Position numbers and translations under genes: made by a program. The notes under the pieces are model-generated. The model was given only the letters and a program-made list of their open reading frames with translations, was not told where the DNA came from and made no database searches. From Bacteroidota bacterium (lineage in GTDB: Bacteria; Bacteroidota; Bacteroidia; Chitinophagales; Chitinophagaceae), in contig JAFDXI010000036.1 of assembly GCA_018268035.1 (NCBI GenBank), forward strand, positions 1 to 39,210: a stretch of 39,210 nucleotides of DNA, read 5' to 3'. Shown here in pieces: positions 186 to 20,087 of this stretch (within the stretch, counting starts at the first letter, position 1; each line of letters opens with the position of its first letter).

Positions 186-1103
186 GTGGAGCTTGATAGA
201 CCAAATTACAGGCCTGAAGCAAAAAGGAAAAGTGGACCCAATTTAACCCGACTTGGGGTTTTAAGAATGGATGTTGATAATCTTGGTGCAATTTTCAGAC
301 GGGGTCTCCATCCTTCAAAACGTAGTTTTAGCAGGTACAGTACTTTAAGTAGGTCGCTGGATTGGTTTTTTAAAGGATACTTAAATACAATTTGGACAAG
401 TAATGATGAGTACAAAAAATTTTCTCAGATTATTTATAGTGGAGGTGATGATTTATTTATTGTAGGTAAATGGGATATACTCATAAAAATGGCTTATGAT
501 ATTCAATCAGCTTTCAAGAGTTGGGTTTGTGAAAATGGAGAACTTACCATTAGTGGCGGTATGTCTATTGTCGGGCCGCGATTTCCAATATTAAAAAGCG
601 CATCATACAGTCACGATTTTGAGAGTGCAGCAAAGACTTATGTATATGGTACAGAGAAAAAGAATGCATTTTCATTTATTAATTATAATGTACATGGCAG
701 TGGTGAATTATTGAATGTGGTATTGAATTGGGATGCAGAGTATCCATATATATATAGACTTAAAGAAGAAATAAAAACCTTAATATACATGAAAGATGGA
801 CTGCCAGAAGGCTTTACTTCTGCTATATTTAACCTGATGCAACAAGCGAAGATGGTTAAAAATCAAGAAGGGTTATATTATCCCACTGTACTTCGTGTAA
901 TCTGGTTAGCAGCCTATCAATTTAAACGAAGCAGTGATGGAAAATGTGAAGCAGTAAAAGAGTTTTTAAAAAAATGGACAACAGCAATCATGACAGGGAA
1001 ACCACCTGACAATAATGCACCAGTTGAAACCCAATATCACGCATTACAATTTCTTGGTATTGCCGGACGATGGGCTTCACTGGAAGAACGTAGTAAAATG
1101 TAA
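186..1103 (+). CDS. cas10: Cas10/Csm1, C-terminal part (frame interrupted upstream)
   Basis: This is the large subunit of the type III-A effector; on target-RNA binding its Palm domain makes cyclic oligoadenylates. The visible part begins with the Palm2 core (LGVLRMDVDNLGAIF) and carries the cyclase motif SGGDDLF near residue 87, followed by the helical D4 region. Only about 305 residues are present, against roughly 750-850 for a full Csm1. The GTG at 186 is only the first possible start. Coding sequence clearly continues upstream (TFEELSG, typical of the segment before Palm2), but that frame meets TAA at 117-119, just after VQFIGG, and no start codon lies between the stop and 186. So either cas10 is broken here or the base is an error. 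The rest of the gene lies outside the window. Csm2 follows after 34 nt. Identity is secure; functional status is not. Confidence 0.88.
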   Translation: MELDRPNYRPEAKRKSGPNLTRLGVLRMDVDNLGAIFRRGLHPSKRSFSRYSTLSRSLDWFFKGYLNTIWTSNDEYKKFSQIIYSGGDDLFIVGKWDILIKMAYDIQSAFKSWVCENGELTISGGMSIVGPRFPILKSASYSHDFESAAKTYVYGTEKKNAFSFINYNVHGSGELLNVVLNWDAEYPYIYRLKEEIKTLIYMKDGLPEGFTSAIFNLMQQAKMVKNQEGLYYPTVLRVIWLAAYQFKRSSDGKCEAVKEFLKKWTTAIMTGKPPDNNAPVETQYHALQFLGIAGRWASLEERSKM

Positions 1104-1137
1104 ACATTAATATTTTCACCTTTAAAATGTAATTAAT

Positions 1138-1641
1138 ATGCCAGACAGAAATAATCCTTATAATTCCAATCGGGGAAACCAATATAGGAGACAATCTCCA
1201 TCTTATAAGGCAGACAGAAATTACCATCAGGAAGAGTTAATAGGTGGTAAAAGTAATGCCCAATGGGCCAATGATATAAAGAAATGGGTGACTGATGGAA
1301 TTAATAAAGAGACCATAATCTATGCAGAGGCTATGGGTAAAAAATTAAAAGATGATGGACTTACAACTTCACAAATAAGAAATGTATTTGGTGAGATGCG
1401 AAAAATACAATTGAATGGATTTGAAGAAGAGATGTCTAGCTTTTTATTGCTTCGTCCAAAATTAGCCTATGCCGCAAAACGGCAGAATGCCAAGGGGATG
1501 GATGCTTTTTATGAACTTTTTTGTACAGCATATGATGCAATAAATACAGAGGATAAAAAGAATTCTCCAAAACAGTTTGATCAACTTTTGCAGGTTATGG
1601 AAGCCGTTCTTGCATATCACAAATATTATGGTGGTCAATAA
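1138..1641 (+). CDS. csm2: Csm2, small subunit of type III-A complex
   Basis: Small alpha-helical subunit that forms the inner filament of the Csm complex along the crRNA-target duplex. The protein is 167 aa with a low-complexity Asn/Arg/Tyr-rich N-terminus (about 1-35), then the Csm2 core. Recognisable pieces are LTTSQIRNVFGEMRKIQ, the KLAYAAKR segment, and a C-terminal helix ending AYHKYYGG. It starts with ATG 34 nt after cas10 and is followed 30 nt later by csm3, so it is in the same operon. The length is slightly above the usual 120-150 aa because of the N-terminal tail. Confidence 0.9.
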   Translation: MPDRNNPYNSNRGNQYRRQSPSYKADRNYHQEELIGGKSNAQWANDIKKWVTDGINKETIIYAEAMGKKLKDDGLTTSQIRNVFGEMRKIQLNGFEEEMSSFLLLRPKLAYAAKRQNAKGMDAFYELFCTAYDAINTEDKKNSPKQFDQLLQVMEAVLAYHKYYGGQ

Positions 1642-1671
1642 TCATTTATTTAATTATCAAAAAAAATTATC

Positions 1672-2427
1672 ATGAATAAATTATTAAAGAAAATCGAAAT
1701 CACTGGAGTATTGACATTAGAAACAGGTCTGCACATTGGAGGTACAAACAGTAGCATGTCTATTGGTGGTATTGATAAAGCAGTTATCAGAAATCCATTA
1801 AATAACCAACCCTTTATCCCGGGTTCTTCTTTGAAAGGTAAGATGAGAAGCCTCGTAGAAATAAGTTCCGGAAATATTGGAGGAAGTAGTGGTGGTGTTG
1901 TAAATAACGGACCTTCCTCAAATATCGGGACATCTGATCATCCATTATCAGCAGATTTATTTGGTAATGCTATCAATAGTGGACAAAAGCCAAGTCGTTT
2001 AATAGTGCGTGATTTGCCATTAATTAATCATGAAGAATTATTGGCAAAAACGGAGATACCTTATACGGAGGGTAAAACAGAAGTAGTGATTGACCGTATT
2101 ACCAGTGCTGCAATGCCTCGCCAAAATGAGCGTGTGCCTGCCGGTGCAACATTTCGATTAAATCTGATTGTAAATATTTGGGAGCAGGATAATAATGAAG
2201 AAGAATTAATTGAATTGCTCTTTACCGGTTTACAATTATTGAGTGATGATTATTTAGGCGGGCATGGTAGTCGTGGATATGGACAAGTTAGCATTGATAT
2301 TGAAGGTATGATTGAAAAATCAAGTACTGAATTTTACTTCGGAAAAAATAATGCAGGCAAATCCATTATGAATAAATACACGAAACAGATTGAAAGATTG
2401 AAATCCAAAAAACAATTTTCAGAATGA
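1672..2427 (+). CDS. csm3: Csm3, RAMP backbone and target-RNA nuclease subunit
   Basis: Cas7-family RAMP subunit that coats the crRNA and cuts bound target RNA at 6-nt intervals. It is 251 aa with the full family signature: an N-terminal RAMP strand with GLHIGG, then IGGIDKAVIRNP, whose Asp aligns with the Csm3 catalytic Asp, then PFIPGSSLKGKMRSLVE. A Gly-rich loop (GGHGSRGYGQV) lies near residue 205. The stop overlaps the csm4 start by 4 nt (ATGA), indicating translational coupling. All key residues visible by eye are present, so target-RNA cleavage should be intact. Confidence 0.95.
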   Translation: MNKLLKKIEITGVLTLETGLHIGGTNSSMSIGGIDKAVIRNPLNNQPFIPGSSLKGKMRSLVEISSGNIGGSSGGVVNNGPSSNIGTSDHPLSADLFGNAINSGQKPSRLIVRDLPLINHEELLAKTEIPYTEGKTEVVIDRITSAAMPRQNERVPAGATFRLNLIVNIWEQDNNEEELIELLFTGLQLLSDDYLGGHGSRGYGQVSIDIEGMIEKSSTEFYFGKNNAGKSIMNKYTKQIERLKSKKQFSE

Positions 2428-3407
2428 GCAAAACTGCTAAGGCTATTAAGCTGCAATTTACAGGCGGATTGCATATTGGGCGTGGTGCAGAAGAATTGGA
2501 CAAGACCGCAATCAATTACAGCAGTGATGCTTTAAAGAGTGCACTGTATGCGATTGGGTTACCTTATTATCCGCAATGGATAGAAAACCACAAATCTTTT
2601 TTTGGAGGATTTTCTATTAGTAGTGCTTTCCCCTGGTGTAATAACGAGTATTTCCTGCCAAAGCCTGGAAATATTCTCTTTAAGTTTGAAAATGCTGATG
2701 AACTGTCAGAAGCAAAAAGTGCAAAAAAAATTTCCTATATCTCATCGTCTGCTTTCCGAAGTTGGGCTTTAAATCCATCTGACTATGTAAGCGTGCAAGA
2801 AAAACAATTGGGAGATGGTACTTTTTTATTTGAAGGTAAAGGGAAAAAATTTCTTTATTCAGATGTTCAACAAAGAGTTCAGGTGCATATGGAGGATGAT
2901 GAGGATACCCTGCCTTTTTATTTTGAACGCATCATGTTTGAAAAAAATAGCGGTCTTTATTTTCTTATATCATTTGAAGATGAAAAACTAATGCCTCAGA
3001 TAATGCATGCCCTGGAACTTTTAGGTAATGTGGGTATTGGTACAGACAGAACTGTTGGAAATGGTCAATTTGAAATAATAAGTATTGAAGATTTTATGTT
3101 GCCGGAAGGTAAGATTGGAGTACAAATGTGCCTTGGCTTATATCTTCCGACTGAAGAAGAATTGGCATCAATAGATTTAGACCATAGCTATTGGAATCTG
3201 GTAAAACGAGGTGGTTATATAGCACTATCAAGCAATTTGGAATTTCGCAGTTTGAGGAAAAATAACATTTACTTTCTTGGGGAAGGAAGTGCGTTTAGTT
3301 CATCACTCCGACTTAATGGACGTTATGTGGATTTGCAGCCAAAATGGAATAATCCGGAAATGCATCCGGTTTGGCGTGATGGATCTCCACTTTTCATCAA
3401 TCTATAA
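2424..3407 (+). CDS. csm4: Csm4, RAMP subunit (Cas5 family)
   Basis: Cas5-like RAMP that caps the 5'-handle end of the crRNA and bridges Cas10 and Csm3. The 327-aa protein opens with an RAMP strand (AIKLQFTGGLHIGRG). It has a central stretch (SAFPWCNNEYFLPKP) typical of Csm4 and a Gly-rich loop GNVGIGTDRTVGNGQF near residues 201-216. The ATG overlaps the csm3 stop by 4 nt and the gene ends 9 nt before csm5. Family length is normal (about 300-330 aa). Confidence 0.92.
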   Translation: MSKTAKAIKLQFTGGLHIGRGAEELDKTAINYSSDALKSALYAIGLPYYPQWIENHKSFFGGFSISSAFPWCNNEYFLPKPGNILFKFENADELSEAKSAKKISYISSSAFRSWALNPSDYVSVQEKQLGDGTFLFEGKGKKFLYSDVQQRVQVHMEDDEDTLPFYFERIMFEKNSGLYFLISFEDEKLMPQIMHALELLGNVGIGTDRTVGNGQFEIISIEDFMLPEGKIGVQMCLGLYLPTEEELASIDLDHSYWNLVKRGGYIALSSNLEFRSLRKNNIYFLGEGSAFSSSLRLNGRYVDLQPKWNNPEMHPVWRDGSPLFINL

Positions 3408-3416
3408 ATCGAAAAT

Positions 3417-4565
3417 ATGGCAACAGCAAAAATCACGACACTGACACCTGTACATATTGGCAATGGTCAAAAATTACTTCGTGATTTTGATTTCATTGTT
3501 GAGAATGGAAAGGTTGGGTTACTTAATCTTGAAAAAGTTGTTCAGGTTATTGGTATAAATAGGTTACCACAATTGACTGCAGAAATTGAAAAAAAGAAAG
3601 TAAAGGATTACTTAAAAAGAACTATTCCTGCTATTTCTTTCAATGAATTATGTGACAGAACAATAAAAACAAATGAGCATATAAGCCAAACAACCGGTGA
3701 ACTTAAAGAACAAATTTATACTTCCCTTCAGGGACCTTGCATCCCCGGTTCCTCATTAAAAGGTAGTTTGCGCACTTTAATGTTGAGCTACTTAACAGAT
3801 GATTCAAGAAATAACGAAACTCAGCAAAGAGAATTTTTAAGAAATGTAAATTGGAATGGTAAGATCCAGTTTGATAAATTAGATAGAGTTTTATTTGGTG
3901 ATACTGCCAATGTGAAAAGTACCCGCTTCCTTATAGTTGGTGATATTCAATTTAAAAATGGTGATACTGAAATACACGAGTTGAGTTACATCAACCAATT
4001 AGGTGATGAAAGTTGGGAGTACGAAACCAATAAACTGCAGTTGGTAGAATGTATCAGGGCTGGTGCTTCTGCAACATTTCAATTAAAATTGAATCTGGAA
4101 TTGGCTGAAATATACCGTAAAAAGCAGGAAAGGTTGGTTTCATTTAATCCGGAAAATCGGACCATGCCTTCATTGAAAGACCTGACATTTTTCGATAAGG
4201 ATGAGGCAACTTTTCTGACCAATGTAAATTTGAGAACCCGAAAGCTACTACAGTGGGACATCAAAAAACTTAAGGACCTGGAAGCCGAGCAGGATTTGAT
4301 TGATGCACTGGTAAAGATTCAAAAGATAGCTGATACATGTAAGGATGGGGAAGCTGTAGTAAGAGTGGGAGGACATAATGGATGGCATTTTATGACGGGT
4401 CGTTGGATGATGTATGATAAAGATGTTTTCACAGATGAAATGTTTGATGCAATGCAAGCATCTGCTCAGCGTACCAATCGTTATATAGGTCAGCAGTTTC
4501 CGAAGACAAGGAAAATGACTGATGCCGGATTACCATTAGGGTTTGTAAAAATTGCATTGAAATAA
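3417..4565 (+). CDS. csm5: Csm5, RAMP subunit at the 3' end of the crRNA
   Basis: RAMP subunit placed at the 3' end of the crRNA, needed for crRNA maturation and complex assembly. The protein is 382 aa. The N-terminal RAMP strand is ITTLTPVHIGNGQKL, and the diagnostic motif PCIPGSSLKGSLRTLM is near residue 110. The C-terminal half is mixed helical and ends at PLGFVKIALK. It follows csm4 by 9 nt and precedes csm6 by 36 nt, completing a csm2-3-4-5 order standard for subtype III-A. Confidence 0.93.
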   Translation: MATAKITTLTPVHIGNGQKLLRDFDFIVENGKVGLLNLEKVVQVIGINRLPQLTAEIEKKKVKDYLKRTIPAISFNELCDRTIKTNEHISQTTGELKEQIYTSLQGPCIPGSSLKGSLRTLMLSYLTDDSRNNETQQREFLRNVNWNGKIQFDKLDRVLFGDTANVKSTRFLIVGDIQFKNGDTEIHELSYINQLGDESWEYETNKLQLVECIRAGASATFQLKLNLELAEIYRKKQERLVSFNPENRTMPSLKDLTFFDKDEATFLTNVNLRTRKLLQWDIKKLKDLEAEQDLIDALVKIQKIADTCKDGEAVVRVGGHNGWHFMTGRWMMYDKDVFTDEMFDAMQASAQRTNRYIGQQFPKTRKMTDAGLPLGFVKIALK

Positions 4566-4601
4566 TAACTAATAAGTTCTTGAAATTGAAAATTTCAACA
4601 A

Positions 4602-6074
4602 ATGAATCATTTAATCATAACTACGGGTAATAGTGATATCCAATTTTACAGACCTGACATCGAACAACAAAAGAATATTTCATTAATTAAAGAGGATGAC
4701 AAATTATATGTTTCAATAGATGGTGATAAAATAAATATTGTCCAGAACAGGTTTCAAAAAGATTGGTTATTACTTGCATCTTGTAGGAAGGATGGCGATT
4801 TATTAAAGAAGCATTTTGCATCTTTTGAAAAAATAATTCACCTTCCCCTTATACAACCTACACTTGATTATTTGAAACAGTATGAAATTCTTTTTAGTAA
4901 AGTCTCAATTGTATACACAGATCAAAAGGACGAGAAGTTTAGAAAAAATGATACACTTTTTATAAAAGATATTATTGAGCTAAAACTAAAAGAACAATAT
5001 CCAAATATAGAAGTTGATTTTTTGGGAATAGAAAAGGTAACTGATATAGATGCACTTTATCCAATCATGTATGCAAAAGTTAGAGTTTGGAGGAACCACC
5101 TTGCTGAGAATGCACAGGTTTACCTGGCTGACCAGGGTGGTATTGATCAGATTAACCAGAGCTTGCGTTTACAATTACTCCAGGCATTCAAAACGCGAAT
5201 TCATATTTTGCAGAAAGCAGAAGCCGCAGATACCAAAGAACTTCAATTTCCTCAACTTTTCTTAAAAGATCTGGCCAGGCAAAATATAATTAAACATGTG
5301 AATGATTATGAATTCAACAAAGTAGATGATACGTTGCAACCTGAGAATTGGGTAATTCGCCTTTCAGAATATGCCGCCCGAAGACTGGAATTGCAATATG
5401 AAAAAATTTACCAGGTTGCTGAACAAGCCAATGCTATTTTAAAGAAAGAGAACAGGCTTGAGTTGCCAAAATGGAACTGGAAAAAAATGAGATCAGAAAA
5501 TCGTCTTGATACAAATAAAATTATAATTAGAGATTTATATCTTGCCGCAAAAATCCAATTTAAAAATGCCAGGTACAATGAATTCATCTGGCGTATGTTT
5601 ACAATCTATGAAAATTTTTTGCGAGAGCCCATTGATACTATTTTGCAGACTGATTCTTTGCATACCGCTTTTAATAGCCAACTAAACCGTTATGACACAA
5701 ATAAAAAGTGGGATCAACTTTTAGAAAAACTTGACCTCACATTAAAGAAACTTCTTTGCGATAATAAAATCTTTACTTCCAATCCCAACAGGGCATCTTA
5801 CAGTTTTATTTTTTATTATTTAGTAAATAAGAATATCATATCATCACCTGTTCAAAATGAAGATTTAAAAAGTTTAGAAATGGAATTGAATGAACTTTCC
5901 GGGAGAAGAAATGGTGTTATGCATAAGATGGGCTCAGTAAATAAAAATGATCTGGGTTCGTATTTTTCTTCGCCTGATGCTAAGGGATTTCAACTGCTTG
6001 ATCAATGGTTTGGCATCCAGGGTATGGGTGATTTTGATTTGTATAGAGAACAAATTTTGGATTATTATCAATAA
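4602..6074 (+). CDS. csm6: Csm6-like CARF-HEPN ribonuclease
   Basis: Ancillary effector of type III systems: a CARF domain senses cyclic oligoadenylate made by Cas10 and switches on a HEPN RNase that degrades RNA non-specifically. In this 490-aa protein the N-terminus has the CARF-type strand and loop LIITTGNSD, and a second Gly loop (DQGGIDQINQ) sits near residues 176-185. The C-terminus carries the HEPN catalytic motif R-x4-H (R436 to H441, in GRRNGVMH). Placement directly after csm5 fits Csm6. Assignment to a particular Csm6/Csx1 subfamily and the ring size of the activator cannot be read from sequence. If Cas10 is truly broken, this nuclease would lack its in-cis signal source. Confidence 0.88.
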   Translation: MNHLIITTGNSDIQFYRPDIEQQKNISLIKEDDKLYVSIDGDKINIVQNRFQKDWLLLASCRKDGDLLKKHFASFEKIIHLPLIQPTLDYLKQYEILFSKVSIVYTDQKDEKFRKNDTLFIKDIIELKLKEQYPNIEVDFLGIEKVTDIDALYPIMYAKVRVWRNHLAENAQVYLADQGGIDQINQSLRLQLLQAFKTRIHILQKAEAADTKELQFPQLFLKDLARQNIIKHVNDYEFNKVDDTLQPENWVIRLSEYAARRLELQYEKIYQVAEQANAILKKENRLELPKWNWKKMRSENRLDTNKIIIRDLYLAAKIQFKNARYNEFIWRMFTIYENFLREPIDTILQTDSLHTAFNSQLNRYDTNKKWDQLLEKLDLTLKKLLCDNKIFTSNPNRASYSFIFYYLVNKNIISSPVQNEDLKSLEMELNELSGRRNGVMHKMGSVNKNDLGSYFSSPDAKGFQLLDQWFGIQGMGDFDLYREQILDYYQ

Positions 6075-6216: not shown

Positions 6217-7377
6217 ATGGTTCAGAGAGATTTAATAAAAATTATCAAACAAGACCTGAAAAAAGTACCCTCTGTGGTATTGTTTGGCCCAAGGCAAACC
6301 GGTAAAACTACCCTGGTCAAGCAATTAATGAGCGAATCTAAAAGCAGGTATCTGTATTTAGATATGGAATCTCCGGCCGATAAAGCCAGGCTTACAGACC
6401 CTGAGTTATTCCTGTCGCGGGTCGCAGACAAAACCGTCATCATAGATGAAGTGCAAACCATGCCACATCTTTTCCCTGTACTTCGATCACTGATTGACCG
6501 CAACAGAAAGCCCGGACGATTTCTTCTTTTGGGTTCGGCTTCACCCGAATTGATTCAACAAAGTGCAGAGTCCTTAGCCGGCCGCATTCGCTACAGGGAG
6601 CTGTTCCCCTTTTCTTTAGAAGAAATAGGATTTACAAACCAGGAAAAGCTATGGTTCAGGGGAGGTTTTCCCAGAGCTTATCTTGCTAAAAACGATGCAG
6701 AGGCCATAGAATGGCTGAATGATTTTATTTACAGCTATGTAAGCCGCGACCTGCGAATGCTCGGTCTATCCATGCAACCTACAGAGATAACCCGTTTGCT
6801 GCAAATGCTGGCACACCAACACGGTCAATTATTGAATCATTCTAACCTGGCGCGCTCCCTTGGCATATCTATGCCTTCGGTAAAAAAAGCCATGTATTAT
6901 TTAGAGGAGGCCATGCTTATCAGAACACTTCAGCCCTGGTTTATAAACGTGGGTAAACGGTTAGTGAAGTCGCCCAAAGTTTTTATTCGCGATTCAGGAA
7001 TGCTTCATAACCTGCTGTTCGTGCAGGCCTATGAGCAATTGATGGGGCATCCACAGGCCGGGCATTCGTGGGAGGGGTTTGTTGTGCAGCAGATATTAAC
7101 GGTTTTACCCGAAAATATTCAGCCGTGGTTTTACAGAAGCCAGGATAACGCTGAAATAGATTTGATTTTAACTAAGGCTAACCACGCGCAATGTGCCATA
7201 GAAATCAAACTGACCAATGCACCAGAAATCAGGAGGGGTAATACGGAAGCCATTGCTGATTTGAAGCCCAAACACACTATCATTATAACCCCCGGTGCAG
7301 ATACATACCCCCTAAAAGATAAGTGGGTTGTGTATAACCTGGAAAATTTCCTGAAAGAAATGGAAAGCCTTTTATAA
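6217..7377 (+). CDS. AAA ATPase with DUF4143 / PD-(D/E)XK-like C-terminus
   Basis: The 386-aa protein has a P-loop near residues 24-32 (GPRQTGKTT), Walker B VIIDEV near 74-79, and a GSASPEL sensor-like segment. A DUF4143 part follows (FRGGFPRAYLA, then a winged-helix-like SLGISMPSVKKAMYYLEEA). The C-terminal end has the spaced acidic residues of a PD-(D/E)XK fold (SWEGFV, AEIDLIL, AIEIKLT). Such proteins are common, mobile and poorly characterised; a link to CRISPR immunity is not established. By eye this gene is more GC-rich than the csm genes, and it sits behind an inverted repeat, so it was probably acquired separately. An upstream ATG at 6213 is out of frame. Confidence 0.85.
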   Translation: MVQRDLIKIIKQDLKKVPSVVLFGPRQTGKTTLVKQLMSESKSRYLYLDMESPADKARLTDPELFLSRVADKTVIIDEVQTMPHLFPVLRSLIDRNRKPGRFLLLGSASPELIQQSAESLAGRIRYRELFPFSLEEIGFTNQEKLWFRGGFPRAYLAKNDAEAIEWLNDFIYSYVSRDLRMLGLSMQPTEITRLLQMLAHQHGQLLNHSNLARSLGISMPSVKKAMYYLEEAMLIRTLQPWFINVGKRLVKSPKVFIRDSGMLHNLLFVQAYEQLMGHPQAGHSWEGFVVQQILTVLPENIQPWFYRSQDNAEIDLILTKANHAQCAIEIKLTNAPEIRRGNTEAIADLKPKHTIIITPGADTYPLKDKWVVYNLENFLKEMESLL

Positions 7378-7420: not shown

Positions 7421-8830
7421 ATGCCATATCCTTTTAACGACAAACAGCAACAGGTATTCAATCAGTTAAAGGCATTTGCTAAAGATAAAACTATCAATAC
7501 CTTTATTCTGAATGGTTATGCCGGTACCGGAAAAACTTTTCTGATTCAGTATTATGCCAAATACCTCAAACAAAAGAAAATAAAATTTTCCCTACTGGCT
7601 ACCACCGGAAGAGCAGCCGCTGTGCTGAGAGGCAAGACGGAGTTGCCAACTTCTACAGTTCATGGTGCATTGTATTCTTTCTCAAAAGTGGATGGCGATG
7701 ATGAAGACATTCCGGATGATGCACCTGCAGATGCTTTCGGTCAGATGCGGTTGATCTTTGAGTCCAATAAAAAATTGGAAGATAATTGTATTTACATAGT
7801 AGATGAAGCTTCTATGCTGGCCAGTGAGGCTTCGAATGATAATTCTTTTGCAGTCTTTGGTTCCGGATCATTATTGCCTGATTTGTTGAAGGCAATTGGA
7901 ATTAATAAAATCATTTTTGTTGGCGACCCCTGCCAGCTCCCTCCCATCAATCAAATCATAAGCCCTGCTCTCGATGAAAAATGGTTGAATACATCCGGTA
8001 GAATCGCAGTTACCGCAACACTTGAAAAAATTATGCGAACGAATGAAAATAATGATATTCTCGATATCGCTTCTGATGTGCGCATGTCTGTTGGAGTTAC
8101 TCCATCATCAAAGTGGATTAAACTTCCTGCACGCAATAAAAATAATTGCATTATTGTGCCGGATGGAAACACATTATTTTTAGAATATTTTGCACGGTTC
8201 CTGCAATTTGGGCCAAAAGGAACAATCGCTATTGCTCATAGCAATATGATGTGTAATCACCTGAATAAATATTTTCGTAAAAGATTATATCCCGAAAGTA
8301 ATAAACTGATTGAGCCAGGTGAAATACTGATGGTAACCCAGAATAACCACCTGGTGCCTCTTACTAACGGCGATTTTGTCAAAGTACTTCATTTAGGTGA
8401 AGTAACACTACAGGCTAACCTTAAGTTTCAGAATGTACGGGTTTCACATTTGGACACAGAAAAAGAATTCGAACTGAAACTTGCTCTGGATCCTTTTGCC
8501 AATTTTGCTGCTAATCTTACTGTGGACCAGCAGCGAAATTTAATGATTGATTTCTCAAGGAGGATGAGGCGAAAAGGTTTTAAACCGAAATCAGAGGAAT
8601 ATTACAATGCCATGCGAACAGACACCTTTCTGAATTCTTTAAGGGCTACTTATGGCTATGTAGTTACATGTCATAAAGCACAGGGTGGCGAATGGGATGA
8701 TGTGTTTCTTTTCCTCGACAAAAAAATGTATGGATATATGTCTCCTGACCAGATGCGCCGATGGTGGTACACAGCAATTACGAGAACGAAAGAACATTTG
8801 TATCTTCACGATGGTTGGTGGCTTACATAA
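7421..8830 (+). CDS. SF1B DNA helicase, RecD/Pif1/Dda-like
   Basis: A single-protein UvrD/RecD-superfamily helicase of 469 aa. Motif I is GYAGTGKT (residues 32-39), motif Ia LATTGRAA, motif II IVDEAS (about 126-131) and motif III FVGDPCQLPPI. The C-terminal motifs are VTCHKAQGGEWDDVF (motif V) and YTAITRTKEHLYL (motif VI). No nuclease domain is seen. The stop is followed after one base by the ATG of the TPR-CSD gene, so the two are translationally linked. Its position between the interference and adaptation genes suggests DNA unwinding during spacer processing or target handling, but that is inference; it may be a passenger defence gene. Confidence 0.88.
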   Translation: MPYPFNDKQQQVFNQLKAFAKDKTINTFILNGYAGTGKTFLIQYYAKYLKQKKIKFSLLATTGRAAAVLRGKTELPTSTVHGALYSFSKVDGDDEDIPDDAPADAFGQMRLIFESNKKLEDNCIYIVDEASMLASEASNDNSFAVFGSGSLLPDLLKAIGINKIIFVGDPCQLPPINQIISPALDEKWLNTSGRIAVTATLEKIMRTNENNDILDIASDVRMSVGVTPSSKWIKLPARNKNNCIIVPDGNTLFLEYFARFLQFGPKGTIAIAHSNMMCNHLNKYFRKRLYPESNKLIEPGEILMVTQNNHLVPLTNGDFVKVLHLGEVTLQANLKFQNVRVSHLDTEKEFELKLALDPFANFAANLTVDQQRNLMIDFSRRMRRKGFKPKSEEYYNAMRTDTFLNSLRATYGYVVTCHKAQGGEWDDVFLFLDKKMYGYMSPDQMRRWWYTAITRTKEHLYLHDGWWLT

Positions 8831-8831
8831 T

Positions 8832-10106
8832 ATGATATCAGAAATGAATTTTAAAAAGGCGTTTGAACTGCGTAAGTCGCATCAATTCCGGGATGCAATA
8901 GAAATATATCAAAACCTTTGGCTGAATGAACCTGAAAAATTCAATGAATGGGATGGATGGAGTTATGCCTGGTGCCTGTCGAAAATGAACCGTCATCAGG
9001 AGGCGCTGGAAATATGCAGACAGCTTTATCCTCGGTTTAAAAATGTGGAAATATTGAATACATTATATGCGAAATGTATTTATTATACACAATTTGATTT
9101 CCAAACTTCAACAACTCTTCCTGTGTTACAAAAGGCAGTACAGGCAATGTATCAGCTTTCGCCACCACATACTCCTTATTCTTTTACAACAAGAGCAATT
9201 TTTAAATTGATTAAAAGATTGATGGAACAACAGTCCATTGACTGGAAAGGAATTGAAACCTGGCTTGAAAAAATGGATCCGGATTTGCTTGATAATAACC
9301 CCTGGGAAATTACAAATACAAAAGGCAAGTCAATGCAACTTGCATCGCCACGGGAAGAATGGTATGCAAATATGATAAGAGTGAAAGGTGGACTGAAACA
9401 ACCTTTGGAATTATTGAAAATTCTGGAAACGGCCCGTAAACAAAATATTAAATGGCATTATAATAATGATATCTGGTTTGCCCGTAAAGAAGCTTTTGCC
9501 CTTAGAGAACTTGGGAAAAATTCAGAAGCTGAAAAAATTCTTCGTAAGATAGTAAATCAAAAAAGGGAATGGTTTCTTTTGCTTGATTTGGCAGAAACAG
9601 TGGGGAATAAAGATGAACAATTACAACTCATGTCAGAAGCTGCATTGGCGCCGGGAAAGAGAGAAATGAAAATTAAACTGTATGTTGCTTTACAAAAGTT
9701 ATTGAAAGATAAACATCCAAATGAATCAGCATTGCTTTTCTGCCTGGTTGCAGCCATCCGTGAAGAGAATGACTGGCCTGTGCAAACTGGCTTTAGGGAT
9801 GAAGCAGTGAAGATGGGTATAGACCCTGATAAAGTAGTTTCATCAACGGTAATAATAGAGAAATTAACTCCTTTCTGGAAAAAGTTTATAGCAGTCCGGA
9901 AAAGAATGAATGGAATAGTTGATATAATCTTCTCCAATAATAAAAGCGGGTTTATTAAAACAGGGAATCAAAAATATTTTTTTAAAACCGGTAAGTTAGA
10001 AGGTAAAATAAAGCCCGGGGATAAAGTTGTCTTTGAAGTAATAAACAGTTATGATCAGAAGAAAAAAAGAATGGGTATGATGGCTATTAAAATAGAAGTA
10101 GTTTAA
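8832..10106 (+). CDS. TPR-repeat protein with C-terminal cold-shock-like domain
   Basis: The start was placed at ATG 8832, one base after the helicase stop (another ATG is at 8844). A longer frame from 8685 would read through the helicase 3' end and is unlikely. This gives about 424 aa. The N-terminal two thirds are helical repeats of TPR type (FELRKSHQFRDAIEIYQNLW; RKEAFALRELGKNSEAEKIL). The last 65 or so residues form an OB/cold-shock-like module: GIVDIIFSNNKSGFI, YFFKTGKL, GDKVVFEVI. A nucleic-acid-binding scaffold partnering the helicase is plausible. The two-gene unit is not one I can name. Confidence 0.75.
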   Translation: MISEMNFKKAFELRKSHQFRDAIEIYQNLWLNEPEKFNEWDGWSYAWCLSKMNRHQEALEICRQLYPRFKNVEILNTLYAKCIYYTQFDFQTSTTLPVLQKAVQAMYQLSPPHTPYSFTTRAIFKLIKRLMEQQSIDWKGIETWLEKMDPDLLDNNPWEITNTKGKSMQLASPREEWYANMIRVKGGLKQPLELLKILETARKQNIKWHYNNDIWFARKEAFALRELGKNSEAEKILRKIVNQKREWFLLLDLAETVGNKDEQLQLMSEAALAPGKREMKIKLYVALQKLLKDKHPNESALLFCLVAAIREENDWPVQTGFRDEAVKMGIDPDKVVSSTVIIEKLTPFWKKFIAVRKRMNGIVDIIFSNNKSGFIKTGNQKYFFKTGKLEGKIKPGDKVVFEVINSYDQKKKRMGMMAIKIEVV

Positions 10107-10174
10107 TGCTTTAATATCAAATCAATAATAATTCAAACAAACCAGGCTTTGAAAAATTGAAAATTGATATGCAC

Positions 10175-10237
10175 AATTGATAATTCGTAATTCGTAATTT
10201 TTAATTCTTAATTGATAATTGATAATTCGCAATTGAA
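10175..10237. repeat. AT-rich short tandem repeats before cas1
   Basis: The 133-nt gap between the TPR gene and cas1 ends in reiterated units of TTGATAATT and ATTCGTA. Such runs are frequent between Bacteroidota genes. The repeat runs to within three bases of the cas1 ATG, so it may hold the promoter of the adaptation genes, though no clear TAnnTTTG element is seen. Confidence 0.6.
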
Positions 10238-10239
10238 CC

Positions 10240-11247
10240 ATGAATCTAATCATCAACTCTTATGGCGCCACGCTGCAAAGGGAAAACAATCTTTTTGTGA
10301 TCACTACTGCCGAGGGAAAGCAAACTTTTCCGCCGGATGTGGTGCGGACAATTTCTATTAATAAAAGTGCAAGGATCACAAGTGATGCCATTTTGCTCGC
10401 CATCAAAAACCAGGTAGAAGTGCTTTTTGTAAATGATATGGGCGAACCCGAAGGCAGGGTATGGAGCGTACAATATGGTTCGGTCAGTAACATTCGTAAA
10501 TGCCAGGTAAATTTTCTCTATTCAAAAGCTGCTGTGCAATGGGTCAAAGATTTAATCATTGAAAAAATTGACCGCCAGATTGCATTGCTTTTAGGACTGC
10601 AACCAGATGAAGAAAACAATTTAAAACAACACAATGTTTTTAAATATGCCATCAATAGCATGGAGGATTATAAAAGAAAAATTGAAAATGCTGAGGGTGA
10701 AGTCATCAGTGATGTAGCGCCATCGTTGCGGGGCTGGGAAGGCGCTGCAGGAAAGAAATATTTTTTCTGTATCAGTAGATTAATGCCCCCGTTTTACAAG
10801 TTTGAAAACCGAGACAGGATGCCGGCCAAAGATCCATTTAATGCATTGCTCAATTATGCTTATGGCATATTGTATGGCAAAGTGGAAGGTGCATTGATCA
10901 AAGCAGGGATAGATCCCTATCTCGGAATTTTTCACAGGGATGAATACAACAGGCCTGCACTGGTGTTTGATTGTATTGAATATTATAGGTCGTGGATGGA
11001 TTATGTGGTTTTTCAGCTTTGTAAATCAGAAGCTATACCACAGGAAGCATTTGAAAAAGTGGGAGATACCGGAGCCATCAGGTTGCTGCCATTGGCCAAA
11101 CGGATTTTGATTCAATCTGTCAATGATTTTTTGGAAGAAATAATTGTTTTGGGAAAACCCCTGAGCCGGCAATCACATATTGAAGCCGATGCATACAAAC
11201 TTGCCAATACATTTTTAAAAGAAGAAAACAATGGTACTGATAGGTAA
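10240..11247 (+). CDS. cas1: Cas1 integrase
   Basis: Metal-dependent integrase that with Cas2 inserts new spacers at the leader end. It has 335 aa, normal for the family, with an N-terminal beta domain (to about 80) and a helical catalytic domain. The putative metal ligands are E167 (RGWEGAAG), H232 (GIFHRDEYNRPALVFD) and D244/E247 (FDCIEYYR). The tail ends in a charged segment that overlaps the next gene by 17 nt. There is no fused reverse transcriptase or Cas6 domain. It is the first of three overlapping adaptation genes leading into the array. Confidence 0.95.
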   Translation: MNLIINSYGATLQRENNLFVITTAEGKQTFPPDVVRTISINKSARITSDAILLAIKNQVEVLFVNDMGEPEGRVWSVQYGSVSNIRKCQVNFLYSKAAVQWVKDLIIEKIDRQIALLLGLQPDEENNLKQHNVFKYAINSMEDYKRKIENAEGEVISDVAPSLRGWEGAAGKKYFFCISRLMPPFYKFENRDRMPAKDPFNALLNYAYGILYGKVEGALIKAGIDPYLGIFHRDEYNRPALVFDCIEYYRSWMDYVVFQLCKSEAIPQEAFEKVGDTGAIRLLPLAKRILIQSVNDFLEEIIVLGKPLSRQSHIEADAYKLANTFLKEENNGTDR

Positions 11248-12256
11248 ACACATCACCACCATTGCAGATCCGCTTCAGCCTGTTGCAATGGATAAACTTT
11301 ACAAAGCCACTATCAATGCTGATAGTGAAGTGGCTACACTTCAAAGAAGGTTGCAGGCTGTAAAGATGCTTGATCTGCAACAATACCGAAAACTGAAAAC
11401 TGGTCTGCCTTATATTGTTTGCGCTCAGTTTCAACCTAAAATCAGGAAGAAAGAAAATTTCCTTTATACCGAAAGGTTTATAGTAGATATAGATCATTTG
11501 TCCGCATCTGATTTGGATGTGATGACTGTGAAAAACAAATTGAAGGAAGACCCGCGTGTTGAATTTATGTTTACCTCTCCGGGGGGTGATGGATTAAAAG
11601 TATTTTTTGCCCTTAGAGAAAAGATTAGCGACAGTGCATATTATGCAATGTTTTACAAATCATTTTGCCTGCGGCTTGCTTCGGAATACCGGTTAGGCGA
11701 TACAGTAGATACCAAGACAAATGATGTAACAAGATGTTGTTTTACCAGTCATGATGCAACAGCCTATTATAACCCTGCACCAGAAAAAATTATTGCAGCG
11801 GAATATATGCCTGAAGTGTCATCTTCTGGTCCTGATATTTTTCTGAAAGCACTTCAAAAAGAAGAGAAAGAAATTTCAAATGGTAAAAAAAATGATAATC
11901 CAACAGCAGGTGCAAATGATGAAATCCCGGATGAAGTATTAAATACTATAAAACAAAAAATTGGTATGCGGGTAAAAGCGCCCCGCATCAAAGAATATGA
12001 ACAACCAGAACAACTTGATACCCTGATGAAGGAATTGGCAGAGCAATTGGACCAGGTAGGAGCTACAGTTATTAGTTCAAAACCGATATCCTATGGAAGG
12101 CAGGTAAAGATAGGAGCCGGTAAATATTGGGCCGAAATCAATTTATTTTATGGGCAACGCGGTGTGAGCATTGTGCCTACCACGAAAACGGGTAGTAACA
12201 AAGAACTGTGTGATCAAATAGTATTGCTGTTGAAAAGCCATTTTGATTGTCATTAA
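11231..12256 (+). CDS. Primase-polymerase-like protein (BT4734/VirE-N type) in cas1-cas2 operon
   Basis: The 341-aa protein begins inside cas1 (17-nt overlap). Residues about 80-185 carry the BT4734/VirE N-terminal archaeo-eukaryotic-primase-like signature. This is a DxD pair (D86, D88 in FIVDIDHL), SPGGDGLKVFF (116-126, at the place of the primase sxH motif but with Lys), and DTKTNDVTRCCFTSHD with D165 and R168. A charged linker (about 205-255) leads to a C-terminal module of about 85 residues (GATVISSKPISYGRQVKI; KYWAEINLFYGQRGVSIV) that I cannot name. CRISPR-associated primase-polymerases are known next to cas1/cas2 of some type III systems, and a role in spacer-precursor synthesis or processing is the natural inference. 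Confidence 0.8.
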   Translation: MVLIGKHITTIADPLQPVAMDKLYKATINADSEVATLQRRLQAVKMLDLQQYRKLKTGLPYIVCAQFQPKIRKKENFLYTERFIVDIDHLSASDLDVMTVKNKLKEDPRVEFMFTSPGGDGLKVFFALREKISDSAYYAMFYKSFCLRLASEYRLGDTVDTKTNDVTRCCFTSHDATAYYNPAPEKIIAAEYMPEVSSSGPDIFLKALQKEEKEISNGKKNDNPTAGANDEIPDEVLNTIKQKIGMRVKAPRIKEYEQPEQLDTLMKELAEQLDQVGATVISSKPISYGRQVKIGAGKYWAEINLFYGQRGVSIVPTTKTGSNKELCDQIVLLLKSHFDCH

Positions 12257-12264
12257 AAAATAAG

Positions 12265-12747
12265 ATGCCAAAACCACCCAACAAAGAGTTTAATCTGAAG
12301 GCGAGGATTGAGAAATTAAAAGCAGCCGGGTTTAATTGTATTGAAGAGAAGGAGGTTGCTTTGAATGAAGAAGATGCGTTAAAGCCATTACCTGAACGGA
12401 TTCAAATGATACTTGGAATCATCAGAAGTGAACCCATAAAATCTACAACTATGAATTATTTGATTTTATATGATATTGAAAAGAACAAGATAAGAAGTTT
12501 GATATCAAAATATTTGATATCCATGGGTTGTATCCGGATTCAGAAATCAGTATTTTTGGCACATACAGATCACAAGAAATTTGATGTCATCAAAACCACA
12601 TTGGCTGAGATTAATGAAGTGTATGAAAACAAAGACAGCATCATCCTGGTGCCATTAAATGTAAGTGATGCAAGAAGCATGAAACTGATTGGGCAGAATG
12701 TGAATATAGATCAGATTATAGATCCACCCAATACTGTTTTTATTTAA
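12265..12747 (+). CDS. cas2: Cas2 with N-terminal extension
   Basis: The ferredoxin-like Cas2 core covers about the last 95 residues: MNYLILYDIEKNKIRSLISK, then GCIRIQKSVFLAH, then DSIILVPL. It begins only after an extra segment of about 60 residues (FNLKARIEKLKAAGFNCIEE onward). Cas2 proteins are normally 80-110 aa, so the extension is unusual. The chosen start is ATG 12265; a TTG at 12247 would overlap the primase gene stop and add six residues. The gene ends 91 nt before the first repeat. Cas2 bridges two Cas1 dimers during integration; the extension could contact the co-encoded primase (inference). Confidence 0.88.
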   Translation: MPKPPNKEFNLKARIEKLKAAGFNCIEEKEVALNEEDALKPLPERIQMILGIIRSEPIKSTTMNYLILYDIEKNKIRSLISKYLISMGCIRIQKSVFLAHTDHKKFDVIKTTLAEINEVYENKDSIILVPLNVSDARSMKLIGQNVNIDQIIDPPNTVFI

Positions 12748-12838
12748 GAACTGAATAATTTATTAAGCATGAAAATGAAGAAAATTTTGGTAAAATTACG
12801 TGTAATTAATTCGTCCTAAATAGTTTACAAAAAGTACT
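12748..12838 (+). promoter_or_regulatory. Putative CRISPR leader
   Basis: These 91 AT-rich bases lie between the cas2 stop and the first perfect repeat. They contain a short palindrome, AATTAC-GT-GTAATT (12794-12807). The leader is assigned to this side because cas1-cas2 abut it and the degenerate repeats lie at the opposite end of the array. No convincing promoter was read, so array transcription may begin here or continue from the cas operon. Confidence 0.55.
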
Positions 12839-15800
12839 GCCGGAGAGGCACATCCATCATAACAAGGATTAAGACATAAATGTGATGGGTTATTAAGACT
12901 TTTAAATGAAACAGCCGGAGAGGCACATCCATCATAACAAGGATTAAGACATTGGTTCATTTTCCCATACAAAAGGAGACTCAAGGCCGGAGAGGCACAT
13001 CCATCATAACAAGGATTAAGACAGACACTATTTTGTCTCTCGCTTCTTCCTGATGAGCCGGAGAGGCACATCCATCATAACAAGGATTAAGACCTACCTT
13101 CCAGGTAACATTTTCATCTTCGTTCCTAATGCCGGAGAGGCACATCCATCATAACAAGGATTAAGACTAAATCTATGTTTTTTAAATTAAGATAATTGCC
13201 GGGCCGGAGAGGCACATCCATCATAACAAGGATTAAGACTTATCTTCATCCTCTCTTTCGGTCAAACTGAAGAAGCCGGAGAGGCACATCCATCATAACA
13301 AGGATTAAGACAGTTTTTTATAGACTCTAACTCTCTCTTTTGCTTAGCCGGAGAGGCACATCCATCATAACAAGGATTAAGACAAGCACAAATACCTGTA
13401 TGAAACGGGTTTACCGTCTCTGCCGGAGAGGCACATCCATCATAACAAGGATTAAGACTTCATAAATGAAACCTGAGAAGATTTCACCCTAAACGCCGGA
13501 GAGGCACATCCATCATAACAAGGATTAAGACTTCTTTTGTTTAGCGTCAGTGACGCTAAGAGTCTTTGCCGGAGAGGCACATCCATCATAACAAGGATTA
13601 AGACTCTGGCTTCTTCTGCGAAAGGCAGATTTCTAAAATAGCCGGAGAGGCACATCCATCATAACAAGGATTAAGACCTTTGCACCTGCTCCATATCCTT
13701 CATTCATAAATGAAAGCCGGAGAGGCACATCCATCATAACAAGGATTAAGACAGTGTGAAGAAAAAATTTACAGTAAAAGCTATAACGCCGGAGAGGCAC
13801 ATCCATCATAACAAGGATTAAGACAATTTAATAACACCTCCTCCATCTGTTCTGACAGAAGCCGGAGAGGCACATCCATCATAACAAGGATTAAGACTTT
13901 TCAATTTGATACTTACCCGTAAGGGTAACATCAAGCCGGAGAGGCACATCCATCATAACAAGGATTAAGACTCGTTAAACCGTTCAACCCATTACCTAAT
14001 GCAATGGGCCGGAGAGGCACATCCATCATAACAAGGATTAAGACCTGTCAAGGTAACATCGAATGGCCGATCTATTTCAAGCCGGAGAGGCACATCCATC
14101 ATAACAAGGATTAAGACTTGCGTTGCTTTTATCCTAAAGCCTTCCCTTGTTAAGTGCCGGAGAGGCACATCCATCATAACAAGGATTAAGACCACTGACT
14201 TCGTTATTCTTAATATTTTATCTGCCCTGCCGGAGAGGCACATCCATCATAACAAGGATTAAGACTTAATTCAGTTCTTTCTTTTGTGTTTGACACATTT
14301 AAAGCCGGAGAGGCACATCCATCATAACAAGGATTAAGACCTGATTTTCATACCCTGAATATAAATCATATGTGTAGCCGGAGAGGCACATCCATCATAA
14401 CAAGGATTAAGACAGCACATCTCTGTGCGCAACGACTCTAAACCTTGAGGCCGGAGAGGCACATCCATCATAACAAGGATTAAGACAAGGTAACATCAAA
14501 TGCTTTGTCAACCTCAAGCCCTGCCGGAGAGGCACATCCATCATAACAAGGATTAAGACAATTGTATTTCATAAGCATTTTTGTCTTTCTGATTAGCCGG
14601 AGAGGCACATCCATCATAACAAGGATTAAGACCTTTTATCATTTTCGTAAATACAATTATCAATATAAGCCGGAGAGGCACATCCATCATAACAAGGATT
14701 AAGACATTCCCCTATCGGGGTTACACCTAAAAAGGTTTTAGCCGGAGAGGCACATCCATCATAACAAGGATTAAGACATTCCGAACGTGTATGTTTCCGG
14801 TAAGCCATGCTGTGCCGGAGAGGCACATCCATCATAACAAGGATTAAGACAGGATAAGATTTGTTCTCAAGCCAAATTCCTGATTTTGCCGGAGAGGCAC
14901 ATCCATCATAACAAGGATTAAGACTGAGCTTTAAATTCTTGTACAGTCATGTTGTTTGTGGCCGGAGAGGCACATCCATCATAACAAGGATTAAGACCTC
15001 CAAATGCTTCATTTAAAAACGAAACCTGTGTTGCCGGAGAGGCACATCCATCATAACAAGGATTAAGACTATCCGGGTAGGACTGCTATAGAGAATTTTT
15101 TGTTTTGCCGGAGAGGCACATCCATCATAACAAGGATTAAGACACGGTAAAATGCACGCTCCGCTTTCAATACTAAAAAGCCGGAGAGGCACATCCATCA
15201 TAACAAGGATTAAGACTATGAAGTCCATAGACTTTACATGATTTTTGGAAGCCGGAGAGGCACATCCATCATAACAAGGATTAAGACGATTTTTTAGCCT
15301 GTTATTCCCGCCCTTCTGTAGCGCCGGAGAGGCACATCCATCATAACAAGGATTAAGACTAATCCCTGCACCACACACATTTAATCGCCGGATAGGGCCG
15401 GAGAGGCACATCCATCATAACAAGGATTAAGACTTTAGCCTGTTATTCCCGCCCTTCTGTAGCCTCCGGCGCCGGAGAGGCACATCCATCATAACAAGGA
15501 TTAAGACGCTACCCTGTTAAGTTCAGGGGAGTTATCATTTGGAAAGCCGGAGAGGCACATCCATCATAACAAGGATTAAGACTCGTGTAAGTACGCCCAG
15601 ACTTCATTAGGATCACCGCCGGAGAGGCACATCCATCATAACAAGGATTAAGACTGATGGGTTATTAAATTTATATGAAAGACAGATACCGCCGGAGAGG
15701 CACATCCATCATAACAAGGATTAAGACATGAGGTGAATAGCTCTCATACTCCAAAATATTTACTAGCCGGAGAGGCACATCCATCATAACAAGGATTAAG

Positions 15801-16902
15801 ACACTACATACCAAGTTAATAAAAATTTTAGCATAAAGCCGGAGAGGCACATCCATCATAACAAGGATTAAGACTGAAAGGTATATATGCTTTGACTTTA
15901 TATCAGCCTGTGCCGGAGAGGCACATCCATCATAACAAGGATTAAGACCTGCACCACACACATTTAATCGGCCTGATAGGTTAAGCCGGAGAGGCACATC
16001 CATCATAACAAGGATTAAGACGATGTTTAAAAAATTATAACGTTTGATTTCCCGAATGCCGGAGAGGCACATCCATCATAACAAGGATTAAGACTGTTTT
16101 GAGCGAACTTGTTACTTTTTTTTAGATGTTAGCCGGAGAGGCACATCCATCATAACAAGGATTAAGACATCCCTGTTTGATGCTGTACTTCTGGTTGCTG
16201 TCCAGGCCGGAGAGGCACATCCATCATAACAAGGATTAAGACTTTCCTCTTCTGTGCTTACACACACGTTCATCCCGGCCGGAGAGGCACATCCATCATA
16301 ACAAGGATTAAGACATTTCCACCATACAATCATTGTCGTAATGCCCTGGCCGGAGAGGCACATCCATCATAACAAGGATTAAGACCATTAGTGCCTTTCG
16401 TGTACCGAAAGACTCGTGTAAATGCCGGAGAGGCACATCCATCATAACAAGGATTAAGACAGTATGTACTCTGAGTCATCAGCTATAAGCAGGTACTGCC
16501 GGAGAGGCACATCCATCATAACAAGGATTAAGACATTTTTTTCAACCAAGACATAGTCAGTTTTGCTTCTAGCCGGAGAGGCACATCCATCATAACAAGG
16601 ATTAAGACAAATTTTTCGCCTTTGCATACAATGTGACTATGATAGGCCGGAGAGGCACATCCATCATAACAAGGATTAAGACCACTATCATAAAAATGCT
16701 CCGGTTGTTTCTGTTCAGCCGGAGAGGCACATCCATCATAACAAGGATTAAGACTTAATTTAATATATTTTTTATTGCCAGCATTTTTAAAGCCGGAGAG
16801 GCACATCCATCATAACAAGGATTAAGACACGGGTATTAACTCTCCATTCTTTTTTTCCCAATAAAGCCGGAGAGGCACATCCATCATAACAAGGATTAAG
16901 AC
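12839..16902 (+). CRISPR. CRISPR array: 56 repeats of 37 bp, 55 spacers
   Basis: I counted 56 repeats, apparently identical by eye, at 12839-12875, 12914-12950, 12986-13022 and so on, the last at 16866-16902. Each begins GCCGGAGAGGC, has CACATCCATCATAACAA in the middle and ends GGATTAAGAC. Spacers are 34-38 bp. The 3' end resembles type III/I-B repeats that end in ATTGAAAC, so an ATTAAGAC 8-nt handle is expected with transcription along +. Several spacers overlap or are variants of one another (1/39, 9/12, 15/17/23, 34/36, 35/43). Minus-strand frames through the array are artefacts of the repeat. Confidence 0.98.
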
Positions 16903-19920: not shown

Positions 19921-19950
19921 AAACCGCTGTTTTTTAATGGCGGTTTTTTT
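19921..19950 (+). terminator. Rho-independent terminator
   Basis: AAACCGC pairs with GCGGTTT around a T-rich loop, followed by a run of T. It lies 23 nt downstream of the PDZ gene. Confidence 0.8.
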
Positions 19951-19951
19951 A

Positions 19952-20087
19952 TATAATAATGTCACCCCGATGGGGTTTGGTTGCTTCTGTTGATTGTGTT
20001 TTATAGTTATAATAATGTCACCCCGATGGGGTTTGGTTTTTTTTGCATGGATATGTTTTATAATAATGTCACCCTGATGGGGTTTAG
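19952..20087. repeat. Three copies of a 29-bp hairpin repeat
   Basis: Copies at 19952-19980, 20008-20036 and 20059-20087 share TATAATAATGTCACC and GATGGGGTTT. Each contains ACCCC-GAT-GGGGT, a 5-bp stem; the third copy has ACCCT, which still pairs through a G-U. Spacers between copies are unrelated. The rest of the gap up to the aldo/keto reductase (20088-20339) holds nothing I recognise. Confidence 0.85.

Follow-up and report, generated by a model that had tools for sequence, protein, structure and literature searches.

Prespacer making is an open question for many CRISPR (clustered regularly interspaced short palindromic repeats) systems, and a locus that encodes a helicase, a probable single-strand binder, a primase and an integrase together raises the question of whether such proteins could supply these spacer precursors. 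In this study, such a locus was analysed in a stretch of 39,210 nucleotides (nt) from a Chitinophagaceae genome (contig JAFDXI010000036.1 of assembly GCA_018268035.1), the whole of which is hereafter called the window. Five same-strand genes at 7421–12747 encode a short RecD-like helicase, a TPR-CSD protein (tetratricopeptide repeats with a cold-shock-like domain), Cas1, a primase-polymerase of CAPP type B (CAPP_B) and Cas2. Our preferred reading, which we hold to be evenly balanced between right and wrong, is that 7421–12747 is a type III-A CAPP_B adaptation module enlarged by a PDC-M16/TOTE-derived helicase and TPR-CSD, which would feed prespacers to the primase and Cas1–Cas2. This reading draws on the presence of the helicase in CAPP_B loci, its co-divergence, the placing of TPR-CSD, an apparent fusion of helicase and cold-shock domain, the likeness of the CAPP_B C-terminus to M16A C-termini and a published contact between Cas1 and a RecD-like helicase.

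Part of this arrangement has been described previously. The main text of PMC8211822 defines CAPP_B, which it locates chiefly in type III operons from Bacteroidetes, presents DbCAPP as a DNA polymerase, reports yeast two-hybrid contacts of DbCas1 both with DbCAPP and with a putative RecD-like helicase encoded in its operon, and states that RecBCD helicase activity is essential for adaptation in Escherichia coli. An earlier note on this DNA, made from its letters alone, had taken the helicase for an undescribed CRISPR component; this was rejected because a RecD-like helicase of a CAPP_B operon, with its Cas1 contact, appears in that text. The Dysgonamonadaceae CAPP_B operon of PMC8211822 resembles the window in that a putative RecD-like helicase lies close to a cas1–CAPP_B–cas2 set of Bacteroidetes, but no TPR-CSD is named in its text; within the running text, as distinct from the operon figure (Fig. 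1c), cold shock, OB-fold and DUF are not mentioned. Compared by description alone, the Db helicase is likely homologous to the window helicase. The module is of a known kind (CAPP_B with a RecD-like helicase), here with a TOTE-type TPR-CSD partner, and two leads are new, the putative helicase–CSD fusion and the likely TBP-like domain in CAPP_B. This TPR-CSD at a CRISPR locus was not named in the titles and abstract openings of the papers listed by literature searches, and may have been described earlier in fuller texts.

Open reading frame (ORF) calls bear out the five-gene run, the near-overlap of helicase and TPR-CSD, the overlap of cas1 and primase and the direct lead into the leader that the earlier note had described. 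The helicase gene (7421–8830, forward strand, as for the other window genes, the leader and the array) is separated by 1 nt from the ATG of TPR-CSD at 8832; the TPR-CSD gene (8832–10106, 424 amino acids (aa)) begins at an upstream GTG (8685) in the mechanical call. A gap of 133 nt (10107–10239) follows, with AT-rich short repeats of AATTGAT type, arranged in tandem repeats of 7, 14 and 21 nt at 10155–10236. The cas1 gene (10240–11247; Pfam PF01867, E 5.7e-62; best PADLOC profile PDLC02066) overlaps by 17 nt the primase (11231–12256), which was assigned to CAPP_B by its match to NF040562 (E 1.1e-122, 409.5 bits, the cut-off being 200) and adjoins cas1 and cas2. The cas2 gene (12247–12747; TIGR01573, E 2.1e-10) starts at TTG 12247 in the mechanical call or at ATG 12265, 8 nt past the primase stop, and carries up to 68 additional N-terminal aa ahead of the Pfam Cas2 match at residues 69–139. 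A presumed leader of 91 nt (12748–12838), named by its position between cas2 and the first repeat, leads into the CRISPR array (12839–16902), in which repeat analysis found 56 repeats of 37 nt with spacers mostly of 34–38 nt. The order helicase, TPR-CSD, cas1, CAPP_B, cas2 recurs in loci L064/L103 and L065/L128 (L denotes loci and G genomes), and the same order behind the same preceding AAA_14 gene in L064/L103 argues that the arrangement is more than chance. In L065/L128, the helicase is a C-terminal remnant of 103 aa and cas1 is split over two frames, by decay or assembly error.

The helicase is a short (469 aa) RecD-like protein of superfamily 1B (SF1B), and SF1B helicases of RecD type translocate 5′ to 3′. 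Its match to PADLOC PDC-M16A (PDLC04475, E 2.1e-113) covers residues 5–462 and profile positions 12–483 of 721, and Pfam AAA_30 and UvrD_C_2 also match. The motifs GYAGTGKT, VDEAS, GDPCQLPP, HKAQGGEW and YTAITR, read from the sequence, are taken to be the active motifs of RecD-like helicases. Neither TBP-TOTE (PF22721) nor NERD was found in this protein at E 0.01; in longer M16A helicases (L056, L075, L113 and L133), TBP-TOTE forms a C-terminal domain, and L056 has an N-terminal NERD as well. A viral or plasmid origin was rejected: the best 80 of 262 helicase relatives in viral contigs reach 31% identity at most, and helicase matches on plasmids all lie below 60%, the best among the matches listed at 32%. 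Viral contig scans gave no relative of TPR-CSD or CAPP; one phage record matches TPR-CSD at 26%, and no TPR-CSD match was found on plasmids.

CAPP_B genes were sought without regard to the helicase. Matches above the cut-off came from 3 of the 395 genomes of the phylum sample and 8 of the 344 of the family sample, 10 genomes in all, and four loci from a further contig scan belonged to the same ten. The helicase was present in the same cas locus in 9/10 CAPP_B loci, among them the window, L103, L058, L109, L110 and that of genome G713, where the helicase (L131) lies 4.3 kb past the array and an M16A gene is found in addition in L113. At E 1e-20 and with fragments counted, 25/344 genomes of the family sample gave a helicase match: 7/8 of those with CAPP_B versus 18/336 of those without (Fisher p 3e-8).

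The helicase also diverges with the adaptation genes. A Mantel test was applied to the 6 of 10 CAPP_B loci that hold all eight genes, the broken L112 helicase included; helicase distances correlated with those of cas1 (r 0.60, exact p 0.037), CAPP (0.74, 0.026) and cas2 (0.83, 0.011) and showed no correlation with csm2–5 (r −0.13 to 0.14). For the helicase, this supports a co-phylogeny with Cas1 of the kind that the earlier note had proposed to test for the pair. For cas1/CAPP, and likewise for csm3/csm4, the correlation was 0.96. Window and L103 are 90% identical in the AAA_14 gene, 81% in the helicase, 81% in cas1 and 74% in cas2, and low in the effectors (csm3 43–45%, csm4 34–36%, two alignments); between window and L110 the pattern is reversed (csm3 80%, csm5 68%, helicase 39%, cas1 58%). 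These opposite patterns and the distance correlations point to an exchange of the helicase along with the adaptation genes against the effector genes; the helicase appears to swap with the former and not the latter, and the AAA_14/DUF4143 ATPase seems to move with the module. Such distances bear on a very unlikely alternative, in which helicase and TPR-CSD would be interference-stage ancillaries of the Csm effector; their targets might be transcripts or R-loops, for instance, and the cold-shock tail would bind RNA. Although csm genes are present in the loci of the window, L103, L128, L109, L110, L112, G713, L077, L079, L132 and G112 (L083/L071), with the helicase pair abutting csm5 in three of these, the helicase does not follow csm2–5 in its divergence, and no csm gene was in view in L058 (a weak match apart), L059, L075, L076, L078 and L133.

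The TPR-CSD protein was assigned through PADLOC profile PDLC01170 (E 1.6e-49), 'TPR repeats containing protein fused to cold shock-like domain (OB-fold)', a direct match to an entry of PADLOC-DB that is known as a profile name only; its accession among CRISPR accessory profiles (PDLC01164 CARF) suggests that others had seen PDLC01170 near cas. Pfam DUF7017 (E 1.2e-9) lies at about 9471–9794 and a cold-shock/OB-like tail at about 9900–10103; the tail alone matched S1CSD-TOTE-2 at E 0.0014, below the curated cut-off, and TPR was found in the same protein. The AlphaFold2 model has a mean predicted local distance difference test score (pLDDT) of 76, with a good helical repeat part and a tail near 50, and among the matches listed by a fold search, 50 rows, are TPR and similar solenoids, with TM-scores <0.5. 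TPR-CSD is a probable nucleic-acid-binding partner of the helicase. In the window versus L103, it changes most at third codon positions (0.58) and less at first (0.41) and second (0.27). Its subfamily was found, by a search with the alignment of three, in 3/18 genomes, chosen and not random (10 with CAPP_B and 8 with a solo short helicase), always between helicase and cas1, with 49–51% identity among the three loci.

Kinship between TPR-CSD and the M16B partner of PDC-M16, a PADLOC candidate system, is suggested by the shared DUF7017 and by the M16B protein of L113, which matches both PDC-M16B (E 1.1e-207) and PDLC01170 (E 3.4e-10) and thereby ties the two profile groups together. The M16B proteins of L058, L075, L079 and L113 combine DUF7017 with S1CSD-TOTE domains. 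M16B profiles match the window protein weakly (E 2.8e-6 to 2.2e-5), and the TPR-CSD alignment, compared by hhalign with one M16B sequence, that of L058, gave a weak result (probability 1.1, E 0.048). The window resembles PDC-M16 in that M16A is matched along the length of the helicase and DUF7017 is common to the partners, whereas its helicase has no C-terminal TBP-TOTE part, PDLC01170 describes its partner much better than the M16B profiles do and the pair stands in a CRISPR locus.

Cold-shock-type domains of all sources were counted in 7/10 CAPP_B loci; none was found in L109 or L129, and L059 is cut by the contig end. Other sources than TPR-CSD are an M16B gene after cas2 (L058), an M16A and M16B pair upstream of cas10 (G713) and cold-shock-like tails on the sister helicases of L110 and L112. 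These tails matched Pfam CSD at E 4.2e-5 (L112) and 0.22 (L110), both under the curated cut-off, and aligned by hhalign with six TPR-CSD tails at probability 85 (E 5.9e-6); judged from these matches, a cold-shock domain seems to be fused to the helicase in L110 and L112. The L112 helicase frame opens at motif II; a motif I stretch lies directly at its beginning, at 10326–10385, in another frame, and the intervening part is missing.

The C-terminal domain of the window CAPP_B (11876–12238) is proposed to be a divergent TBP-TOTE-like domain, based on hhalign to M16A C-termini and reciprocal hidden Markov model (HMM) matches. Positions 224–325 of NF040562 matched the C-terminus of an M16A helicase in G236 (E 6.7e-4), and nine CAPP_B C-termini aligned with eight M16A C-termini at probability 90 (E 1.7e-6). 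An M16A C-terminal HMM run against 4265 ORFs of the loci under study had the window primase as its best match outside M16A proteins (E 1.2e-4); conversely, the matches that followed the CAPPs in a CAPP_B HMM search were M16A C-termini (L076, E 2.5e-5; L053, E 3.7e-4), along with an off-place match in L070 (E 1.8e-4) and a helicase fragment (E 0.003). The best real CAPP_B/M16A score was 19.4 bits, whereas 1800 shuffles reached 8.2 at most; 3/9 CAPP_B tails (L112, L110 and L129) stood at shuffle level. Pfam TBP-TOTE reached E 0.017 in the CAPP_B of L058 and 0.14 in that of L109, with no match in the window protein. The CAPP_B C-terminus is likely, though not proven, to be related to M16A C-termini and a TBP-like domain.

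These likenesses point towards TOTE systems, named for TPR, OB, TBP and Effector in PMC12458937 (citing Aravind 2022), a text that also notes shared TPR-CSD and TBP genes. The window resembles TOTE in one protein that joins TPR with a putative OB/CSD tail, in a helicase family that bears TBP-TOTE and possibly in a TBP-like domain in CAPP_B; it differs in that its helicase is devoid of a TBP domain and a primase and Cas1–Cas2 stand in place of the effector. We tentatively propose, while leaning towards doubt, that a TOTE-type system was dismantled and rebuilt as a CAPP_B spacer-maker, in which the helicase would have lost its TBP domain, the primase would carry a TBP-like domain and the OB function would be supplied in three ways (TPR-CSD, M16B and helicase fusion).

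Beyond CAPP_B loci, the phylum search for the helicase gave 96 match rows, corresponding to 94 genes, which were divided by score and position into 25 non-housekeeping and 69 housekeeping-type genes (about 230–340 bits and ~475 aa; two split over two rows; 17/69 examined). A cas gene was present within 10 kb of 10/25 non-housekeeping versus 0/17 housekeeping-type genes (Fisher p 0.003), a value that overstates independence because the 10 genes represent 9 genomes, two deriving from one locus (L071 and L083) and four from one genus. The cas genes were sought with window proteins, a few relatives and a Cas1 HMM, so that other effector types could be missed. In a tree of 67 helicases, built by a quick method with 19/64 inner branches open and without duplicates (L064, L066 and L105) and frames <380 aa (L059, L127 and L128), the label 'near cas' required 5 changes versus a shuffled mean of 15.3 (0/500 shuffles as low), and well supported branches force 2 such changes. 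A weakly supported group holds 16/17 housekeeping-type helicases and also L087, one of the 25, and housekeeping-type L096 was placed in another clade without cas. Given the enrichment near cas and the separate placing of housekeeping-type genes, the idea that the window helicase is a general housekeeping gene was rejected. The link to CRISPR may have arisen repeatedly, or it may occasionally have been lost.

Several observations weigh against the module reading. Among the nine helicases of CAPP_B loci, that of L128 is the 103-aa remnant, that of L112 is broken and that of L059 is cut short; L129 has cas1–CAPP_B–cas2 with no helicase or CSD found, and in L109 the helicase is three genes away from cas1, also with no CSD found. 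For a Mantel test, the number of loci (six) is small. The predicted structure of the window helicase was unusable (pLDDT 39.5) and hence not used. CSD and TBP assignments fall below Pfam cut-offs; a CSD-tail HMM built without the helicase fusions misses them (L112, E 0.59; L110 unlisted), and the M16A HMM reaches 5/10 CAPP_B at E <0.1, the other five being at E of at least 0.36 or unlisted. PDLC01170 matched in 15/395 phylum genomes at E 0.001, of which 6 genomes (7 places) above 140 bits formed the strong set and 9 genomes (10 places) with no more than 25 bits were set aside as generic TPR; among the 7 strong places, the window alone is near cas, an argument against linking this broad family to CRISPR in general. 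In the clade of the window helicase, seven close relatives have neither a cas gene nor a partner in their vicinity, and no cas1 match was obtained in 5 of the 8 genomes that have a solo short helicase (a fragment in one of them). Adjacent helicase–partner pairs have cas within 10 kb in 5/13 cases in the phylum sample (four of these five from genus g55) and 3/9 in the family sample, the window being counted in both.

The distribution of the pairs speaks for an alternative in which helicase and TPR-CSD would be passengers, a separate PDC-M16/TOTE defence system clustered in the CRISPR locus with no role in adaptation. This explanation, which we regard as unlikely, is favoured by the pairs away from cas genes, the full M16A and M16B pair upstream of cas10 in G713 (L113), the pairs of genus g55 that are convergent to csm5 or 4–6 kb from cas1, and the solo helicases in genomes without cas1; it accords poorly with the co-divergence of the helicase with cas1, CAPP and cas2, its presence in nearly all CAPP_B loci, the position of the TPR-CSD subfamily, which in 3/3 finds sits between helicase and cas1, and the published Cas1–RecD contact (PMC8211822, main text). 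As the helicase–partner pairs lie mostly away from CRISPR, the link is one of enrichment and not exclusiveness. The earlier note had joined the pair to a Cas1–primase–Cas2 unit and had looked to its gene neighbourhood for a decision; the answer is mixed. The union is supported for the helicase in CAPP_B loci and for the TPR-CSD subfamily at cas1, and non-housekeeping helicases are enriched near cas, yet most pairs lie away from cas genes.

A further alternative concerns the stage at which the proteins act. Helicase, TPR-CSD and CAPP_B could fill or resolve the gapped array after integration by Cas1–Cas2, with no part in making prespacers, which we also consider improbable. Polymerase- and helicase-type genes do adjoin the array, and in genus g66 an M16A helicase lies between cas1–cas2 and the array (L083) or after cas1 and before the array (L133, cas2 not identified), with no M16B found in either; against this, the sequence holds nothing that separates the two stages. 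The Cas1 of genus g66 best fits other Cas1b profiles (PDLC01742) than the window Cas1. In genome G112, the M16A-type helicases L083 and L071 flank one type III-A locus; their matches fall in different frames, and that of L071 has an internal stop.

Under the module reading, the steps that we infer from gene content, recurrence, co-divergence and family relations would be as follows. The helicase, tethered to Cas1, would unwind foreign or replicating DNA; TPR-CSD would bind the displaced single strand via its OB-type tail, while its TPR solenoid might hold helicase and primase together; CAPP_B would prime and copy the single strand into a duplex; and Cas1–Cas2 would integrate this duplex at the leader. 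CAPP_B may, with its C-terminal domain, provide the TBP-like domain that the short helicase lacks. The short helicase would take, inside the module, the role that RecBCD helicase activity plays in E. coli adaptation.

The same-strand run extends upstream of the five genes. It comprises the type III-A effector genes (186–4565, by profile matches), namely the C-terminal part of cas10 (186–1103), csm2, csm3, csm4 and csm5, then a CARF-HEPN (Csx1-like) ancillary gene (4602–6074; PADLOC PDLC01509 Csx1, E 1.7e-34) and an AAA_14/DUF4143 ATPase gene (6217–7377, by profile match; its counterpart in L103 is at 8079–9242), which precedes the helicase. The type III-A assignment follows from cas10 with csm2–5, cas10 being represented by its C-terminal part alone near the contig edge. 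An in-frame stop at 117–119 lies in the cas10 frame just before the recognisable C-terminal part, for which decay, frameshift or edge error are all possible, and the remainder of cas10 would fall past the contig edge. About three copies of a 51-nt repeat containing CCCCGATGGGG, a short inverted repeat, lie at 19946–20114. The window genome (181 contigs) has three further cas1 matches, on contigs C61, C23 and C148. Elsewhere, a PDC-S01 candidate defence gene lies at 4182–5498 of L065, between csm5 and the CARF-HEPN gene, and L075 encodes at 3231–4808 a Cas1 of 525 aa with a weak Cas4-like N-terminal match, 4–5 kb from an M16A–M16B pair.

The module is a compact, testable candidate for prespacer making. 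If a TOTE-type system was rebuilt as tentatively proposed, type III adaptation would have its own dedicated helicase–primase, filling the position of RecBCD in E. coli. Should the link to TOTE prove right, little-studied conflict systems would be tied to CRISPR memory, and the C-terminal domain of CAPP_B would gain a homology lead. The locus hints at a possible route by which some bacteria could make the DNA fragments that they keep as CRISPR memory.

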